Positions 3,877-21,272 of a stretch of 42,532 nt of DNA are shown here, piece after piece. Under the pieces are notes generated by a model that ran no database searches, was not told the origin of the DNA, and saw nothing but the letters and a program-made list of their open reading frames with translations. Made by a program: the position numbers and the translations under genes. Position 1 is the first letter of the stretch, and each line of letters starts with the position of its first letter. The stretch is from contig JAOPXM010000007.1 of assembly GCA_025965125.1 (NCBI GenBank), positions 1 to 42,532 on the forward strand, given 5' to 3'. This DNA is from Nocardioides sp. GTDB taxonomy: Bacteria; Actinomycetota; Actinomycetes; Propionibacteriales; Nocardioidaceae.

Positions 3877-5055
3877 TCAGCGGTGGATCCGTCCCTCGGT
3901 GACGCCGAGCGGCTCGCCGCTGCCGCCCCAGCGTCCGGCGATGATCTCGGCGGCGATGCTGATCGCGGTCTCCTCCGGAGTGCGGGCTCCCAGGTCGAGG
4001 CCGATCGGGCTCGACAGCCGGGCGATCTCGGCGTCGCTCACCCCGGCCTCGCGCAGCCGGGCCAGTCGGTCCTCGTGGGTCCGACGCGAGCCCATGGCAC
4101 CGACGTACGCCACCTCCGGCAGGCGCAGGGCCACCTCGAGGAGGGGTACGTCGAACTTGGGGTCGTGGGTCAGCACCGTGACGATGGTCCGAGCGTCGAT
4201 GTTGCCGGCGTCCGCCTCGGCCGCCAGGTAGCGGTGTGGCCAGTCCACGACGACCTCGTCGGCCTCCGGGAAACGCGATGTGGTCGCGAAGACGGGCCGG
4301 GCGTCGCAGACGGTGACGTGGTAGCCCAGGAAGCTGCCCACCCGGGCCACCGCCGCCGCGAAGTCGATGGCACCGAAGACCAGGAGCCTCGGCTTCGGTG
4401 CGAACGCCCACACGAACACCCGCATCCCCTCGCCTCGCCGCTCCCCGTCGGGCCCGTAGCTCAACGTCGCGTTGTGGCCCGCCGCCAGCAGCCCGAGCGC
4501 GTCGTCGCGGACGGCGTCGTCGGCCCGGTCGGAGCCCAACGATCCGGATAGTCCGTGACGGAACTGCTGTGAATCCGGGGGATCGACGACAGTTCCGTCA
4601 CGGACTATCTCGATCTCGTCCGGACGTACCACGAGGCGGCGGCCCAGCCAGGCGGGTTCGGGATGCTCGATGACGGTGGCAAGGGCGACGGGGCGGCCGG
4701 CCTCGATGTCGGCGGCGATGTCGGCGAGCTCGGGGAACGTCTCGCGGTTCACCTTCTCGACCCAGACGTCCAGGATCCCCCCGCAGGTCAGGCCGACCGC
4801 GAACGCGTCATCGTCGGAGACGCCGTAGCGCTCGAGCACGGGCTGACCGGACTCGACCACAGACTCGGCCAGCTCGTAGACCGCGCCTTCCACGCACCCC
4901 CCGGACACCGAGCCCACGGCGGTGCCGTCCGCACCGACCAGCATCGAGGCTCCGGGTGGGCGGGGCGCGGACTGGAACGTCGCCACGACGGTGCCGACGC
5001 CGATCGTCTCGCCGGCCTCCCACCACTTCATCAGCTCGGGCAGCACGTCACGCAC
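3877..5055 (-). CDS. xdhC: XdhC/CoxI family molybdenum-cofactor insertion protein with in-frame palindrome insert
   Basis: Accessory protein that binds and sulfurates the molybdenum cofactor and delivers it to xanthine dehydrogenase/CO dehydrogenase-type enzymes. Of 392 residues, the N-terminal XdhC_CoxI domain contains SGGCVEGAVYE (about 50-60) and TCGGILDVWVE (about 90-100). The C-terminal Rossmann-like XdhC_C domain has LLVFGAIDFA, YVGAMGSRRT and DLGARTPEETAISIAAEI. Between the two domains, residues 150-170 (IVRDGTVV...QFRHGLS) are encoded entirely by the 63-bp palindromic element at 4547-4609, so the linker is longer than it would otherwise be. The reading frame stays open. The gene overlaps coxE by 8 bp and should be cotranscribed with it. 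The family call is firm; whether the insert affects function is unknown. Confidence 0.92.
   Translation of the reverse strand: MRDVLPELMKWWEAGETIGVGTVVATFQSAPRPPGASMLVGADGTAVGSVSGGCVEGAVYELAESVVESGQPVLERYGVSDDDAFAVGLTCGGILDVWVEKVNRETFPELADIAADIEAGRPVALATVIEHPEPAWLGRRLVVRPDEIEIVRDGTVVDPPDSQQFRHGLSGSLGSDRADDAVRDDALGLLAAGHNATLSYGPDGERRGEGMRVFVWAFAPKPRLLVFGAIDFAAAVARVGSFLGYHVTVCDARPVFATTSRFPEADEVVVDWPHRYLAAEADAGNIDARTIVTVLTHDPKFDVPLLEVALRLPEVAYVGAMGSRRTHEDRLARLREAGVSDAEIARLSSPIGLDLGARTPEETAISIAAEIIAGRWGGSGEPLGVTEGRIHR
4547..4609. repeat. 63-bp palindromic element, copy 1 (intragenic, in frame)
   Basis: Perfect 20-bp inverted arms (left arm GATAGTCCGTGACGGAACTG, 4547-4566; right arm 4590-4609) around a 23-nt centre. 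The centre contains a symmetric ATCC/GGAT dyad. The length is 21 codons, and the copy lies inside xdhC in the element's only open frame. Two further copies with identical arms lie at 17782-17844 and 20284-20346. Confidence 0.95.
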
Positions 5056-16206: not shown

Positions 16207-17484
16207 TCAGGCCAGGCCGGTGGCGGCGAAGGCGGCGTACGACGGATCGATGGTGGCCGCGGGACGGACGCGGTCCGAAACCGCGTCAAGGGTCTTGAGG
16301 CCGTGTCCGGTGTTGATGACGACGGTCTCGAGCGAGGTGTCGAGCTGACCGGTGTCGACGAGCTTCTTGAGCACGCCGACCGTGGTGCCACCGGCGGTCT
16401 CGGTGAAGATGCCCTCGGTGCGCGCCAGCAGGACGATGCCATCGCGGACCTCGTCGTCGGTGATGTCCTCGACGGCGCCGCCGGTCTCGCGGCAGATGTC
16501 GAGGACGTAGACGCCGTCCGCGGGGTTGCCGATGGCCAGGCTATTGGCGATGGTGTCCGGCTTCACCGGGCGGATCGCGTCGACGCCGGCCTTGTAGGCG
16601 ACCGAGACGGGCGAGCAGCCGGTGGCCTGCGCGCCGTACACCTTGTAGGGCTTGTCCTCGACCAGGCCGAGCTTGATCAGCTCCTGGAATGCCTTGTGCA
16701 CCTTGGTCAGCTGGGAGCCGGACGCGACCGGGATCACGATCTGGTCGGGCAGCCGCCAGCCGAGCTGCTCGGCGATCTCGTAGCCCAGGGTCTTGGAGCC
16801 CTCGGCGTAGTAGGGGCGGACGTTGACGTTCACGAACGCCCAGCCCTCCTCCTCGCCGGCGATCTCGGAGGCGAGCTTGTTGACGTCGTCGTAGTTGCCG
16901 TTCACGGCGACCAGCGAGTCGGTGTAGACCGCGGAGTTGACCTGCTTGGGCGTCTCGAGGTTGCTCGGGATGAACACAACCGTCTTGATGCCGGCCCGGG
17001 CGCCGGCGGCCGCGACCGCGTTGGCCAGGTTGCCGGTCGAGGGACAGGCGAAGACCTTCGAGTGGAACTCGGTGGCGGCGCTGAGCGCGCACGCGACGAC
17101 CCGGTCCTTGAAGGAGTTGGTGGGATTGGTGCTGTCGTCCTTGACCCAGAGGTTGTCGATGCCGAGGGCCTTGCCGAGATTGTTGGCCTTGAGGAGTCGC
17201 GTGTAGCCGGGCTCCATGTTCGGGCTCTGCTCGATGTCGTCGGGCACCGGCAGCAACGCCTTGTAGCGCCAGATGTTCGGCGGGCCGGCCTCGATCTGCT
17301 CGCGGGTGATCTCGGGGAAGTCGTAGGCGATCTCCAGGGGACCGAAGCACTCCGGACAGGCGTAGTGCGGGCCGAGCTCGATCTCGTGGCCGCACTCGCG
17401 GCAGGCAAGGCCGGTGGCGTGCCCGAAGGCGCCCTCACGCAGGCCGGGGGTGGTGGTTGCCTTCTCGGCGACGACGGCGCTCAT
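16207..17484 (-). CDS. thrC: Threonine synthase-family PLP enzyme; probable sulfur-carrier-dependent homocysteine synthase (MetM-like)
   Basis: Fold-type II PLP enzyme acting on O-phosphohomoserine, 425 residues. An N-terminal zinc ribbon carries Cys28, Cys31, Cys43 and Cys46 (CREC...CPEC). The PLP lysine is Lys126 in NPTNSFKDRV, and the phosphate-binding loop is PSTGNLANAVAAAGA. Standard annotation would be threonine synthase. The operon partner is a sulfur carrier, and the leader is a SAM-I riboswitch, normally a methionine-regulon device. As I recall, a Streptomyces pathway has been reported in which a ThrC homologue (MetM) and a carrier (MetO) make homocysteine from O-phosphohomoserine; this locus fits it. 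The ATG at 17484 overlaps the leader ORF stop (ATGA) and is preferred over the upstream ATG at 17553, which is too far from the ribosome site. Confidence 0.88.
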   Translation of the reverse strand: MSAVVAEKATTTPGLREGAFGHATGLACRECGHEIELGPHYACPECFGPLEIAYDFPEITREQIEAGPPNIWRYKALLPVPDDIEQSPNMEPGYTRLLKANNLGKALGIDNLWVKDDSTNPTNSFKDRVVACALSAATEFHSKVFACPSTGNLANAVAAAGARAGIKTVVFIPSNLETPKQVNSAVYTDSLVAVNGNYDDVNKLASEIAGEEEGWAFVNVNVRPYYAEGSKTLGYEIAEQLGWRLPDQIVIPVASGSQLTKVHKAFQELIKLGLVEDKPYKVYGAQATGCSPVSVAYKAGVDAIRPVKPDTIANSLAIGNPADGVYVLDICRETGGAVEDITDDEVRDGIVLLARTEGIFTETAGGTTVGVLKKLVDTGQLDTSLETVVINTGHGLKTLDAVSDRVRPAATIDPSYAAFAATGLA

Positions 17485-17570
17485 GCGGCCACACCCGCGG
17501 CGGTGGTGGCGGCGGTCGGGGCGGGCCCGGGCAAAGCGGAGCGAAGCGAGCATGTGTCTGGGGTGGTCAT
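17481..17570 (-). CDS. 29-residue leader peptide ORF before thrC/metM
   Basis: Starts at ATG 17570, five bases after the strong Shine-Dalgarno AAGGAGG that directly follows the riboswitch, and ends in TGA overlapping the thrC/metM ATG (ATGA). The ribosome site is correctly spaced only for this ORF, so translation of the downstream gene probably depends on coupling to it. The peptide begins MTTPDTCSLRSALPG and is rich in Thr and Ala (TAATTAAGVAA). Thr-codon-dependent stalling is conceivable but unproven. A small functional peptide is less likely. Confidence 0.65.
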   Translation of the reverse strand: MTTPDTCSLRSALPGPAPTAATTAAGVAA

Positions 17571-17582
17571 GAAATCCTCCTT

Positions 17583-17710
17583 CTCATCTTCCCCGGCGCG
17601 TACTTCGCGTCCGGGACGGAATTAGCACCGTTTCCGCGACTGCTTTCGCAGGGAGCACGCGGCGGTTGCCGGGACTTCACTGGGCCGTACCCTCAGTCCC
17701 TCTTGATGAG
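17583..17710 (-). ncRNA. SAM-I (S-box) riboswitch
   Basis: On the minus strand P1 is CTCATC (17710-17705) pairing with GATGAG (17588-17583). Between them are the S-box landmarks ATCAAGAGGG, GAGGGTACGGCCC, GTGAAGTCCCGGCAACC and GGTGCTAATTCC in the right order. Immediately 3' is AAGGAGG, the ribosome site of the leader ORF. The 5' flank TCCT (17715-17712) can extend P1 across one G-A mismatch to pair with AGGA of that site. SAM binding would therefore be expected to hide the ribosome site and shut off translation. Confidence 0.93.
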
Positions 17711-17781
17711 CAGGACCCACCCTAGGGCAGCCGTCTCAGCATGTGTACATCGAGTCCGCATGCTGGGCGTCCTAAATGACG

Positions 17782-17844
17782 GATAGTCCGTGACGGAACT
17801 GTCGTCCTCGGGCCCGAGAAACAGCAGTTCCGTCACGGACTATG
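17782..17844. repeat. 63-bp palindromic element, copy 2 (3' of lon)
   Basis: Arms identical to copy 1 except that the last base of the right arm is G. Left arm 17782-17801, right arm 17825-17844, centre 23 nt with an inner 12-bp palindrome CTCGGGCCCGAG. It starts 15 bp after the lon stop codon and could act as a 3'-end hairpin for lon. Confidence 0.95.
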
Positions 17845-17859: not shown

Positions 17860-20175
17860 TCAGGCCGCGGCCGTCACCGCGGCTTCCTCCTGGAGGGCAC
17901 CCCGGACCACGTCGAGGACGTCGCCCACGAGGTGCACGGTGACCGTCTCGAGGACGTCGGCCGGCACGTCGTCCAGGTCTGCCTCGTTGCGTTGGGGCAG
18001 GAACACCTCGGTCAGGCCGGCTCGCTGGGCCGCGAGGAGCTTCTGCTTCACACCGCCGATGGGCAGCACCCGACCGTTGAGCGTGACCTCGCCGGTCATC
18101 CCGACCTCGGAGCGAACCGGCCGACCGGTGGCGAGCGAGGTCAGCGCGGTCACCATCGTGACTCCGGCCGAGGGTCCGTCCTTGGGTACGGCGCCCGCGG
18201 GCACGTGCACGTGGATGTCCCGGTCGAGCACCGTCGGGTCGACGCCCAGCGCCGCGGCGTGCGAGCGGACGAAGGACAGCGCGATCTGCGCGGACTCCTT
18301 CATCACGTCGCCGAGCTGCCCGGTCAGCGTCAGGCCGGGCTTGCCGTCGCTCGCCGAGGCCTCGATGAACAGGACGTCGCCACCCAGCCCGGTGACCGCA
18401 AGCCCCGTGGCCACACCCGGGACCGAGGTCCGCTCGTGCGCCTCCGGGGTGAACCGCGGACGCCCGATGAGGTCCTTGAGGTCCGGCTCGTCGACAACCA
18501 GCGACTCGACCTGTCCGGTCGCGATCCTCGTCGCAGCCTTGCGCAGCGCCTTGGCGATCAGCCGCTCCATCTGCCGCACGCCCGCCTCGCGGGTGTAGTC
18601 GGCCGCGAGCTCGCGCAGCGCCGCGTCGGTGACCGTGACCTCGTCCGGGGTGAGCGCGGCCCGCTCCAGCTGCCGGGGCAGCAGGAAGTCCCGGGCGATG
18701 GCGACCTTGTCGTCCTCGGTGTAGCCGTCGAGGGTGACCAGCTCCATCCGGTCCAGCAGCGCCGACGGGATCTGCTCGACGACGTTCGCGGTCGCGATGA
18801 ACAGCACGTCGGACAGGTTCAGGTCGAGCTCCAGGTAGTGGTCGCGGAACGTGTGGTTCTGCGCGGGGTCGAGCACCTCGAGCAGGGCCGCCGCCGGGTC
18901 ACCGCGGTAGTCGGCGCCGATCTTGTCGACCTCGTCCAGCAGGACGACCGGGTTCATCGACCCGGACTCCTTGATCGCGCGCACGATCCGGCCCGGCAGC
19001 GCACCGACGTACGTCCGGCGGTGTCCGCGGATCTCGGCCTCGTCGCGCACGCCACCCAGCGAGACCCGGACGAAGTTGCGGCCCAGCGCCCGCGCCACGC
19101 TCTCGCCGAGCGACGTCTTGCCGACACCGGGAGGACCGGCCAGCAGGATGACTGCGCCGGAGCCGCGACCGCCGATGACCTGGAGGCCACGCTCGGCACG
19201 CCGCGTCCGGACCGCGAGGTACTCCACGATCCGCTCCTTGACCTCGTCGAGACCGTGGTGGTCGGCGTCGAGGACCGCGCGTGCGGCCACGACGTCGGAG
19301 AGGTCCTCGGTGGTCACGTTCCACGGCAGCTCGAGCACGGTGTCGAGCCAGGTTCGGATCCAGGCCGTCTCCGGGCTCTGGTCGCTGGAGCGCTCGAGCT
19401 TGTCCACCTCGCGAAGCAGCGCCTCGCGCACAGCGTCCGGGACCTCGGCCGCCTCGACGCGGGTGCGGTAGTCGTCTGCGCCCTCCGGCTCGCCCTCGCC
19501 CAGCTCCTTGCGGATCGCGGCGAGCTGCTGGCGGAGAAGGAACTCGCGCTGGCTCTTCTCCATGCCCTCGCGAACGTCCTCACCGATCTTCTCGGCGACG
19601 TCGATCTCCGCCAGGTGCTCACGCGTCCAGGCGATGACGGTGTCGAGCCGCTTCTCGACGTCCGGGGTCTCGAGCAGCTCACGCTTGCGGTCGTTGGAGA
19701 GGTACGGCGCGTAGCCGGCCGCGTCCGCGATGATGCTGGGGTCGGTCAACGTGTGGACCGAGTCGATGATCTGCCAGGCCTCACGGCGCTGGAGGACCGC
19801 GACCATGAGGAGCTTGTACTCCTCGGCGAGCTCGCGGGCGCGGTCGCTGACGACATCGTCGACGGGCTCGACCTCGACCCAGAGCGCGGCTCCGGGTCCG
19901 GTGACGCCGCTGCCGATCCTGGCCCGCTGCCCGGCCTTGAGAACGGCCGCGGCCGCCCCGCCGCTGAACCGGCCGACGCGCTCGATGGTCGCGACCACGC
20001 CGTACGACGCGTAGCGGTCCTCGAGTCGGGGGGCGACGAGCAGCTTGCCGTCGCTGCTGCTACGGGCCGCGTCGATCGCGGCCTGGGATGACTCGTCGAG
20101 CTCGAGGGGGACAACCATCCCCGGCAGCACTACGAGATCGGAGACGAAGAGAACAGGGAGACGCGTGACGGACAT
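17860..20175 (-). CDS. lon: ATP-dependent protease Lon
   Basis: Cytoplasmic ATP-dependent serine protease for misfolded and regulatory proteins, 771 residues. It has an N-terminal LON substrate-binding domain (from LPVLFVSDLVVLPGMVVPLE), a coiled-coil region with EFLLRQQLAAIRKELGE, an AAA+ module with Walker A GPPGVGKT at 347-354 and VLLDEVDKIG, and a protease domain with the catalytic dyad Ser669 (KDGPSAGV) and Lys712 (GGVKQK). The ATG at 20175 starts right at the LON domain; a longer reading from 20217 runs through the HAIR operator and is unlikely. HspR control is expected from that operator. The gene is flanked on both sides by copies of the 63-bp palindrome. Confidence 0.97.
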   Translation of the reverse strand: MSVTRLPVLFVSDLVVLPGMVVPLELDESSQAAIDAARSSSDGKLLVAPRLEDRYASYGVVATIERVGRFSGGAAAAVLKAGQRARIGSGVTGPGAALWVEVEPVDDVVSDRARELAEEYKLLMVAVLQRREAWQIIDSVHTLTDPSIIADAAGYAPYLSNDRKRELLETPDVEKRLDTVIAWTREHLAEIDVAEKIGEDVREGMEKSQREFLLRQQLAAIRKELGEGEPEGADDYRTRVEAAEVPDAVREALLREVDKLERSSDQSPETAWIRTWLDTVLELPWNVTTEDLSDVVAARAVLDADHHGLDEVKERIVEYLAVRTRRAERGLQVIGGRGSGAVILLAGPPGVGKTSLGESVARALGRNFVRVSLGGVRDEAEIRGHRRTYVGALPGRIVRAIKESGSMNPVVLLDEVDKIGADYRGDPAAALLEVLDPAQNHTFRDHYLELDLNLSDVLFIATANVVEQIPSALLDRMELVTLDGYTEDDKVAIARDFLLPRQLERAALTPDEVTVTDAALRELAADYTREAGVRQMERLIAKALRKAATRIATGQVESLVVDEPDLKDLIGRPRFTPEAHERTSVPGVATGLAVTGLGGDVLFIEASASDGKPGLTLTGQLGDVMKESAQIALSFVRSHAAALGVDPTVLDRDIHVHVPAGAVPKDGPSAGVTMVTALTSLATGRPVRSEVGMTGEVTLNGRVLPIGGVKQKLLAAQRAGLTEVFLPQRNEADLDDVPADVLETVTVHLVGDVLDVVRGALQEEAAVTAAA

Positions 20176-20197
20176 TTTTGGCCCAACTTTCCGAAGA

Positions 20198-20218
20198 CCT
20201 GAGTGTTCTCGACTCAAC
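20198..20218. promoter_or_regulatory. lon: HAIR operator for HspR
   Basis: CCTGAGT-N7-ACTCAAC, against the HspR consensus CTTGAGT-N7-ACTCAAG. It lies 22 bp upstream of the lon start, a position suited to repression. Control of lon by HspR is known in Streptomyces. Confidence 0.82.
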
Positions 20219-20283: not shown

Positions 20284-20346
20284 GATAGTCCGTGACGGAA
20301 CTGTCGTCGATGGGCGCGTCGGACGACAGTTCCGTCACGGACTATC
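20284..20346. repeat. 63-bp palindromic element, copy 3 (3' of otsB)
   Basis: Arms identical to copy 1 (20284-20303 and 20327-20346) with a 23-nt centre. The first and last five centre bases (TCGTC/GACGA) also pair, making 25-bp arms here. It ends 15 bp from the otsB stop codon, between otsB and the lon promoter. Confidence 0.95.
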
Positions 20347-20361
20347 GCAAAAAACGGGACT

Positions 20362-21207
20362 TCAGGCTCGGAGCTCCCGGGCATCGGCGGTGAGCTGACG
20401 GAGCAGGTCGAGGACGCCCTCGGGGCCTTTCACGACCACGTCGGAGAGGTCGATGAGGGCGCTCTCCTCGGTGGAGGCCGAGCAGACGAGCAGCGTGGGC
20501 ATCCCGGCCCGGTCGAGGGCCCGGACCGCCTCGAACGCCTCGAGGTCACCCAGGTCGTCGCCGGCGAACATGAACGCGCCCGCCTGCAGCTCGGCCACGA
20601 TGGTCTCGACGGCCAGGCCCTTGTGCATGCCCGCCGAGCGGATCTCGATCACGTTGCGACCCGGCTCCACGATCAGGCCGTGCTGCTTCGCCAGCTCGCG
20701 GACCGCCGGCAGCAAACGCTCGAAAGCGGACTCGCGGTCGGCGAGCCGGCGAGTGTGCACCGCGACCGCCAGCCCCTTGTCCTCGACGAACGCGTCCGCC
20801 GCGTCCGCGAGCCTCAGGGTGCGGGGCAGATCCCGCTCGAAGGCCGCGAGCCCGGGCGGGGGACGCGGGGAGATCACCCGCCGGTTGGTCGAGCTCCAGC
20901 GCTCGTTGCCGTACTGGCCGAAGAGGTAGAGCTCCTTGCCCGCGTCACCGATCGCGCGGCCGACGTCCTCCAGGCCACCCAGGTCGAGCGCCTGTCGAGC
21001 GGGGCGCCCGGTGACCACGGCGATCGCGTTGACCTGTTCGGCCAGGTCGACCAGGACGTCACTCGCGTCGGGGTGGATGCGGGCCTCATCGGGATCGTCC
21101 ACGATGGGCGACAGGGTCCCGTCGAAGTCCAGCCCGACCACGGCCTCCGCCGCGGCGCGCACCAGCGCGGCGTACTTGCGCTCGCCCTCGCCAGAGGTGA
21201 ACTCCAT
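20362..21207 (-). CDS. otsB: Trehalose-6-phosphate phosphatase OtsB
   Basis: HAD-superfamily phosphatase that converts trehalose 6-phosphate to trehalose, the second step of the OtsA-OtsB pathway; otsA is at 24017 on the other strand. It has 281 residues. The catalytic motif is DFDGTLSPI (nucleophile Asp27, acid Asp29), motif II lies in VTGRPARQ, GQYGNERW is typical of the family, and motif IV is FAGDDLGDLEAFEA. The ATG at 21207 is preferred to the GTG at 21219. Confidence 0.94.
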   Translation of the reverse strand: MEFTSGEGERKYAALVRAAAEAVVGLDFDGTLSPIVDDPDEARIHPDASDVLVDLAEQVNAIAVVTGRPARQALDLGGLEDVGRAIGDAGKELYLFGQYGNERWSSTNRRVISPRPPPGLAAFERDLPRTLRLADAADAFVEDKGLAVAVHTRRLADRESAFERLLPAVRELAKQHGLIVEPGRNVIEIRSAGMHKGLAVETIVAELQAGAFMFAGDDLGDLEAFEAVRALDRAGMPTLLVCSASTEESALIDLSDVVVKGPEGVLDLLRQLTADARELRA

Positions 21208-21272
21208 GCCACAACCCAACCACGGCTGGGATCTCTGGTGTGCAGCACGTCAAAACGCGCAGGAGCGAACCG

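Follow-up and report, generated by a model that had tools for sequence, protein, structure and literature searches.

A 63-bp palindromic repeat in Nocardioides and a predicted nuclease gene bracketed by it

The genome of a Nocardioides sp. (a MAG of 3.98 Mb in 257 contigs, 92% complete) carries a population of palindromic elements of fixed length. We propose that they belong to what is probably a two-part system, in which a resident nuclease gene is bracketed by its own ~63-bp palindrome and is accompanied by a population of solo copies of that palindrome, lying mostly behind stop codons. Bacteria commonly carry short palindromic repeats, and the enzyme partner that we know of for them is the RAYT of GTAG-type REPs.

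The window, i.e. the whole stretch of DNA that was analysed (42,532 nt), holds three 63-bp elements. The first (4547..4609) is located in frame within xdhC (3877..5055, minus strand). The second (17782..17844) lies 15 nt past the stop codon of the lon protease gene (17860..20217, minus strand; Pfam Lon_C and others), which adjoins two elements, and the third (20284..20346) lies 15 nt past the stop codon of a trehalose-phosphatase (otsB-like) gene (20362..21219, minus strand; Pfam Trehalose_PPase), at a site common to G004 (L057) and G184 (L049). The coordinates and length of all three are as given in the original prediction. The invariant 20-bp arms that it described are exact except in the copy at 17782-17844, whose terminal base is mismatched (G instead of C, 19/20). 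All three copies have a 23-nt centre that differs in sequence, as had been claimed; however, the 4 nt at either edge of this centre (TCGT or CTGT) are semi-conserved, which leaves 15 nt as the freely variable loop. The element consists of a 24-bp stem, whose innermost bases are TCGT or CTGT, and a loop of 15 nt. Folding of the three copies as single-stranded DNA gave z-scores of -8 to -11. Two inverted conserved ends, a variable spacer of set length and the capacity to form a hairpin are REPIN-type traits, and all of them are present here.

Genome-wide, 23 elements of 63 bp each were found with the pattern (up to 3 mismatches, 23-nt centre) and none with the reversed-pattern control, and the three window copies are therefore not due to chance. 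The 16-bp arm alone (up to 2 mismatches) occurs at 46 sites, every one of which is an arm of the 23 elements (reversed control, 1); accordingly, this search revealed no half copies of the REP singlet kind in the genome. When spacings of 15-45 nt were allowed, the centre was 23 nt in 16/16 exact elements, and no centre that breaks the frame occurs among these 16. The view that constant length combined with divergent centres implies selection on length is supported. The possibility that the loop forms an additional stem was rejected, as its complementarity (0.351) is barely higher than that of shuffled loops (0.322, sd 0.015, n=133). The loops (element positions 25-39) and their flanks show a pattern of A/T-rich, G/C-core and A/T-rich segments with ~10 bp spacing in which the letters are not conserved, and this periodicity perhaps reflects bending of the DNA at the centre.

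The position of the elements relative to genes is far from random. According to gene calls made by a simple script on codon-position GC, 19 of the 23 copies lie 0-19 nt past a stop codon or provide the stop, compared with 1.87% of random windows (699/37464; binomial P about 1e-29). Five copies lie between convergent stops no more than 60 nt apart, and two are wholly within a likely CDS. For 29 copies from six other genomes, the limit was relaxed to 30 nt; a stop is that near in 16 of them, five lie inside an ORF only and eight show neither. Of the five ORF-only copies, two (in CheB and patatin ORFs) probably precede the true start, and another is in an ORF without a Pfam match.

This placement is also what would be expected if the palindromes were owned by the host, as transcription-end or mRNA-stabilising hairpins or as supercoiling sites under host selection, with the nuclease-like protein regulating them or being bracketed for insulation. 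The strong hairpins and the conservation of arms with drifting centres at sites shared between genomes (see below) agree with this explanation as well. However, a T-tract is absent, the flanks are A-rich outward, and a simple terminator scan, which permits loops of 3-8 nt only, found none at two window copies; an intrinsic terminator was rejected on these grounds. Moreover, the patchy presence of the element at one gene (xdhC), the in-frame copies within proteins and the arms private to each nuclease are not what host-owned sites would predict, and we regard this explanation as unlikely.

The XdhC insert occupies about residues 150-170, between the Pfam domains XdhC_CoxI (11-78) and XdhC_C (224-371). 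For comparison, 34 genomes were searched, 31 of them matched, and 30 loci were compared. An in-frame insert in the same linker was found in 11/30 genus xdhC orthologues (one of them, in G137, decayed), and the other 19/30 have no such segment. The segment is therefore an insertion, and it lies in frame within the inter-domain linker, as had been claimed. The arms of the insert resemble arms elsewhere in the same genome in G002, G131, G156, G124, G146 and G051, and partly in G093 (G178 was left out). On a tree built without the insert, its distribution requires 8 changes, of which well-supported branches force 5 or more, and 156/500 shuffles gave values as low, suggesting that the insert is hardly clustered on the xdhC tree; the data fit repeated insertion or repeated loss, and the two cannot be told apart. 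In the one filled and empty pair compared (G178 filled, G182 empty; 89% identical in 4077 aligned columns), neither a duplication nor a clear insertion footprint was seen.

Only one frame of the element is free of stops, as predicted: in each window copy, the frame encoding IVRDG...RHGL can be read through in either orientation, and of the other two frames one hits TGA and one TAG. Besides xdhC of G002, a TPP-enzyme gene of G024, which we take to be menD-like, and a radical-SAM (CofH_C-type) ORF of the present genome, near its N-terminus, look like true in-frame invasions. The single open frame and the in-frame copies in xdhC (11/30), the radical-SAM ORF and the menD-like ORF are the observations in favour of a Rickettsia-like protein-invading element under selection for its frame and the peptide that it encodes. 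This explanation is, however, largely refuted by the placement of most copies outside CDSs, just past stop codons. In addition, the encoded peptide is not conserved but follows the arms, being IVRDGTVV in the present genome and VVPDEKHP in G002. Little credence can thus be left to it, and selection for frame, as originally suggested, or for protein invasion is not upheld: the length is the same within and outside CDSs, so that the divisibility of 63 by three looks coincidental. Since most copies sit right after stop codons, protein invasion is a side effect rather than the purpose of the element, and the xdhC insert would be a by-product tolerated in a domain linker.

The neighbourhood of the two other window copies varies between genomes. 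The lon gene is situated between the otsB-like gene and a thrC-like gene here and in several relatives, and is missing from that spot in others, e.g. G184 and G043. The latter neighbour, a PALP-family gene (16207-17553, minus strand) called thrC-like, has a SAM riboswitch upstream (RF00162, 71 bits; window 17581-17712, minus strand), and in G024, G177 and G164 (L247, L258 and L261) an element lies directly downstream of the thrC-like gene. G184 has a single element at the site where the present genome has element-lon-element, and recombinational gain or loss of lon was suggested by this. The idea of lon as a cassette between two elements was later rejected: lon lies beside thrC in G182, G010, G140 and G093 as well, where no palindrome was found next to its 3' end, and in G168 there is just a weak 55-nt palindrome of a different sequence (G209 was not judged). 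Therefore, lon content and palindromes vary independently. Integron attC sites were another candidate identity for the elements and were set aside.

With the outer motif of the element, several genomes were found to contain two elements about 1.2 kb apart, and one gene family lies in between. In the initial loci, eight homologues of the bracketed gene had an element on both sides in 8/8 cases. The member in the present genome (L040:795-1862, G000:C179) is located outside the window with a palindrome on each side, and the solo copies of this genome number 21, including the three in the window. A profile of the eight homologues matches 198/215 genus genomes and 153/394 class genomes; no match to the nuclease was found in viral contigs, phages or plasmids. 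When the flanks of nuclease loci were scanned for palindromes without any sequence motif, both sides were positive in 28 of the 30 best genus loci (20/22 when the eight seed loci are left out; L131 and L135 have none) and in 15/19 paralogous loci. Among the loci from the class search the figure was 10/23, made up of 5/10 in the same genus, 1/2 and 4/6 in two other genera of the family and 0/5 outside the family. In the controls, 138 ORFs in xdhC and thrC loci gave 10 one-sided and no both-sided cases, and letter-shuffled flanks gave 1/600; the background was 24 palindromes in 247 kb of control loci, some of which are true elements. A second member of the nuclease family in the present genome (L214, G000:C250:9500-14400) has a different palindrome (CGCGCGTGACGCC...), which was found downstream only.

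The protein (~350 aa) has an N-terminal region that is AbiEi-like and a nuclease domain of the Vsr/DUF559/EDxHD type. It has no significant match in Pfam or NCBIfam and no sequence match among solved structures. The AlphaFold model has a mean pLDDT of 85.5 and a pTM of 0.84. No Foldseek match reached E<=0.001. Above this threshold, the C-terminal domain matched phage Vsr/DUF559 proteins (probability near 1), I-Bth0305I (3r3p; probability 0.89-0.93, TM by target 0.64-0.69) and, less surely, NGO0050 (3hrl, probability 0.20). Residues E, D, H and D are invariant in 53/53 nucleases and presumably represent the EDxHD motif. According to a review (PMC3943268), I-Bth0305I, which is an EDxHD enzyme, seems to act as a dimer on a target site nearly 60 bp long. 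AbiEi models of PADLOC match the N-terminus weakly (2/8 members, best E 1.7e-4), and these matches, together with the rapid divergence that nuclease and sites show at syntenic loci, might point to a defence or addiction unit, in which an AbiEi-like nuclease is anti-phage or self-maintaining and toxic and is restrained by the palindromes of the chromosome, acting as decoys or self marks. Nevertheless, PADLOC gave no full defence-family match, there were no phage or plasmid matches, and the loci are stable in 198/215 genomes, all of which makes such a unit quite improbable.

The element type is genus-wide and its arms are species-specific. Under the strict pattern, the present arm type occurs in 4/215 genus genomes, own genome included, and a scan of named genomes returned 18 stretches, all from three Nocardioides MAGs, with a core of 57 bp in 17 and 58 bp in one; viral contigs, plasmids and phages gave no match to the arm pattern. 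A covariance model built from 40 copies matches at least 131/215 genus genomes at E<=0.01; as no more than 24 candidates per genome were scored, these are minimum counts. The exact outer motif (spacing 22-50) is present in 62/215 genomes, and the matches listed mostly span 59 nt, corresponding to the 63-bp element, with a minority of 50, 58, 60 and 61 nt. The inner stem varies between species and is common within some, as AAAAGCACC is found on at least one arm in 7/7 copies of G056 and 8/8 copies of G002; more than one element type is present in G024 and G058. In G209, at least 16 element matches were found and the nuclease profile gave no match at E<=1e-10, perhaps representing an orphan element population. 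Two outer-motif elements lie in tandem, about 90 bp apart, in G093 (C3:207336-207484). Three sites are shared between the present genome and G004 (L034/L046, L036/L047 and window 20284/L057), with flanks 84, 87 and 90% identical, respectively; the element length is kept at all of them, and the centre differences are few, moderate and strong in the same order.

The co-variation of arms and nuclease was analysed in the 53 both-sided loci. The arms of the two copies around one gene have a mean identity of 0.97 (lowest, 0.77), compared with 0.60 between loci, and the own partner is the best or tied best arm match in 51/53 loci. Arm divergence correlates with protein divergence (Mantel r=0.65; 0/2000 permutations). 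This correlation may come partly from species relatedness; however, G198 has four nucleases with four different palindrome pairs, which argues that relatedness is not the whole cause. In the raw scan, the bracketing palindromes are 63 bp in 64/106 cases and 56-71 bp in the remainder, with a centre of even length in 13. Identity was also compared in 104 pairs of syntenic loci; in every pair the value for the nuclease is below that for the flanks (median 0.53 vs 0.75), a contrast which is biased upward because the flank value is the best local match. Five syntenic groups hold 30 of the 53 loci, the largest one having 16. The gene therefore often stays put, diverging together with its palindromes.

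Based on the fold match, the invariant residues and the dimer of I-Bth0305I on nearly 60 bp, we propose a symmetric dimer on the 63-bp palindrome. On the double-stranded site, the predicted nuclease dimer would read both ~24-bp arms and hold its catalytic domains over the 15-nt centre. If the arms are read and the centre is only measured, this would explain why the arms track the protein, the centre is free in sequence and its length is fixed. Putative cutting followed by repair could spread the palindrome and/or keep the arms alike within a genome; the uniformity of the arms may stem from selection driven by the enzyme, from gene conversion or from turnover. Our interpretation is that enzyme and repeat form a partnership similar to REPIN-RAYT but with an unrelated nuclease, for which we infer recognition, cutting and mobilisation.

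The elements might instead be ordinary REPINs or MITEs moved by a RAYT or another transposase, the nuclease being an uninvolved but frequent neighbour. Their anatomy is REPIN-like (PMC3116915), in that the inverted ends are conserved, the variable spacer has a fixed length and the placement is extragenic. Against this, Y1_Tnp (PF01797) occurs in 1/215 genus genomes and is absent from the present one, by which a RAYT mechanism was rejected, and the nuclease is bracketed by cognate palindromes; this explanation is very improbable. It seems to us fairly likely that AbiEi-EDxHD nucleases, each reading a ~63-bp palindrome of its own, in which the geometry is fixed and the half-sites are almost free to evolve, and with solo copies, even intraprotein ones, following the changing specificity, are an independent counterpart of REPIN-RAYT. 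The partnership of this enzyme and repeat is apparently undescribed, and nothing describing a palindrome-nuclease system was found in searches of open-licence PMC papers. If true, it would be a second, unrelated enzyme-repeat partnership, implying that such a life style arose more than once. It would also provide many natural pairs of enzyme and site for reading the evolution of nuclease DNA specificity, and a series of matched long-site nucleases and targets. The in-frame copies are a case of protein invasion by palindromes outside Rickettsia, in which the inserted peptide is rewritten as the repeats change.

Among known systems, the two-part system proposed here shares with REPIN-RAYT, as described in PMC3116915 and PMC8049555, the inverted ends, the set-length variable spacer, the hairpin and the mostly extragenic placement, as well as repeats beside the enzyme gene, a single-locus, vertically inherited enzyme and an own repeat type per enzyme. 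It differs in that the enzyme is a Vsr/EDxHD-like nuclease whereas RAYT is an HUH tyrosine transposase, and in that the arms diverge almost fully between enzymes, the copies number about 2-40 and no REP singlets were found in the present genome. MITEs are likewise small and non-coding with inverted ends, but here one filled and empty pair shows no duplication, the present genome has no Y1_Tnp match, and the interior drifts at fixed length. I-Bth0305I and Vsr-like phage endonucleases have a similar nuclease domain fold, and the dimer target of nearly 60 bp reported for the former (PMC3943268) is comparable in size; in contrast, the present enzymes are chromosomal, have genome-wide solo sites and an AbiEi-like N-terminus, and, unlike in EDxHD homing endonucleases, the gene is bracketed by whole sites instead of splitting one. 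The GTAG and CGTC REPs, including RPE-4 and RPE-6 of Rickettsia, are also small palindromes found after genes and sometimes within them, and many arms here start with GGTAG or GATAG. The CGTC type, with RPE-4 and RPE-6, has stems of 8-9 bp, loops of 4-5 nt and, according to PMC3733652, no dedicated enzyme. The short stems with unpaired tags described there differ from the 24-bp stem and 15-nt loop of the present element, which also lacks an unpaired GTAG/CGTC tag: the GTAG letters lie within the paired arm and are missing in several bracketing pairs. The likeness to the Rickettsia elements that was originally noted thus holds for the occasional intragenic copies, but not for the size of stem and loop nor for the nuclease gene that is tied to the element.
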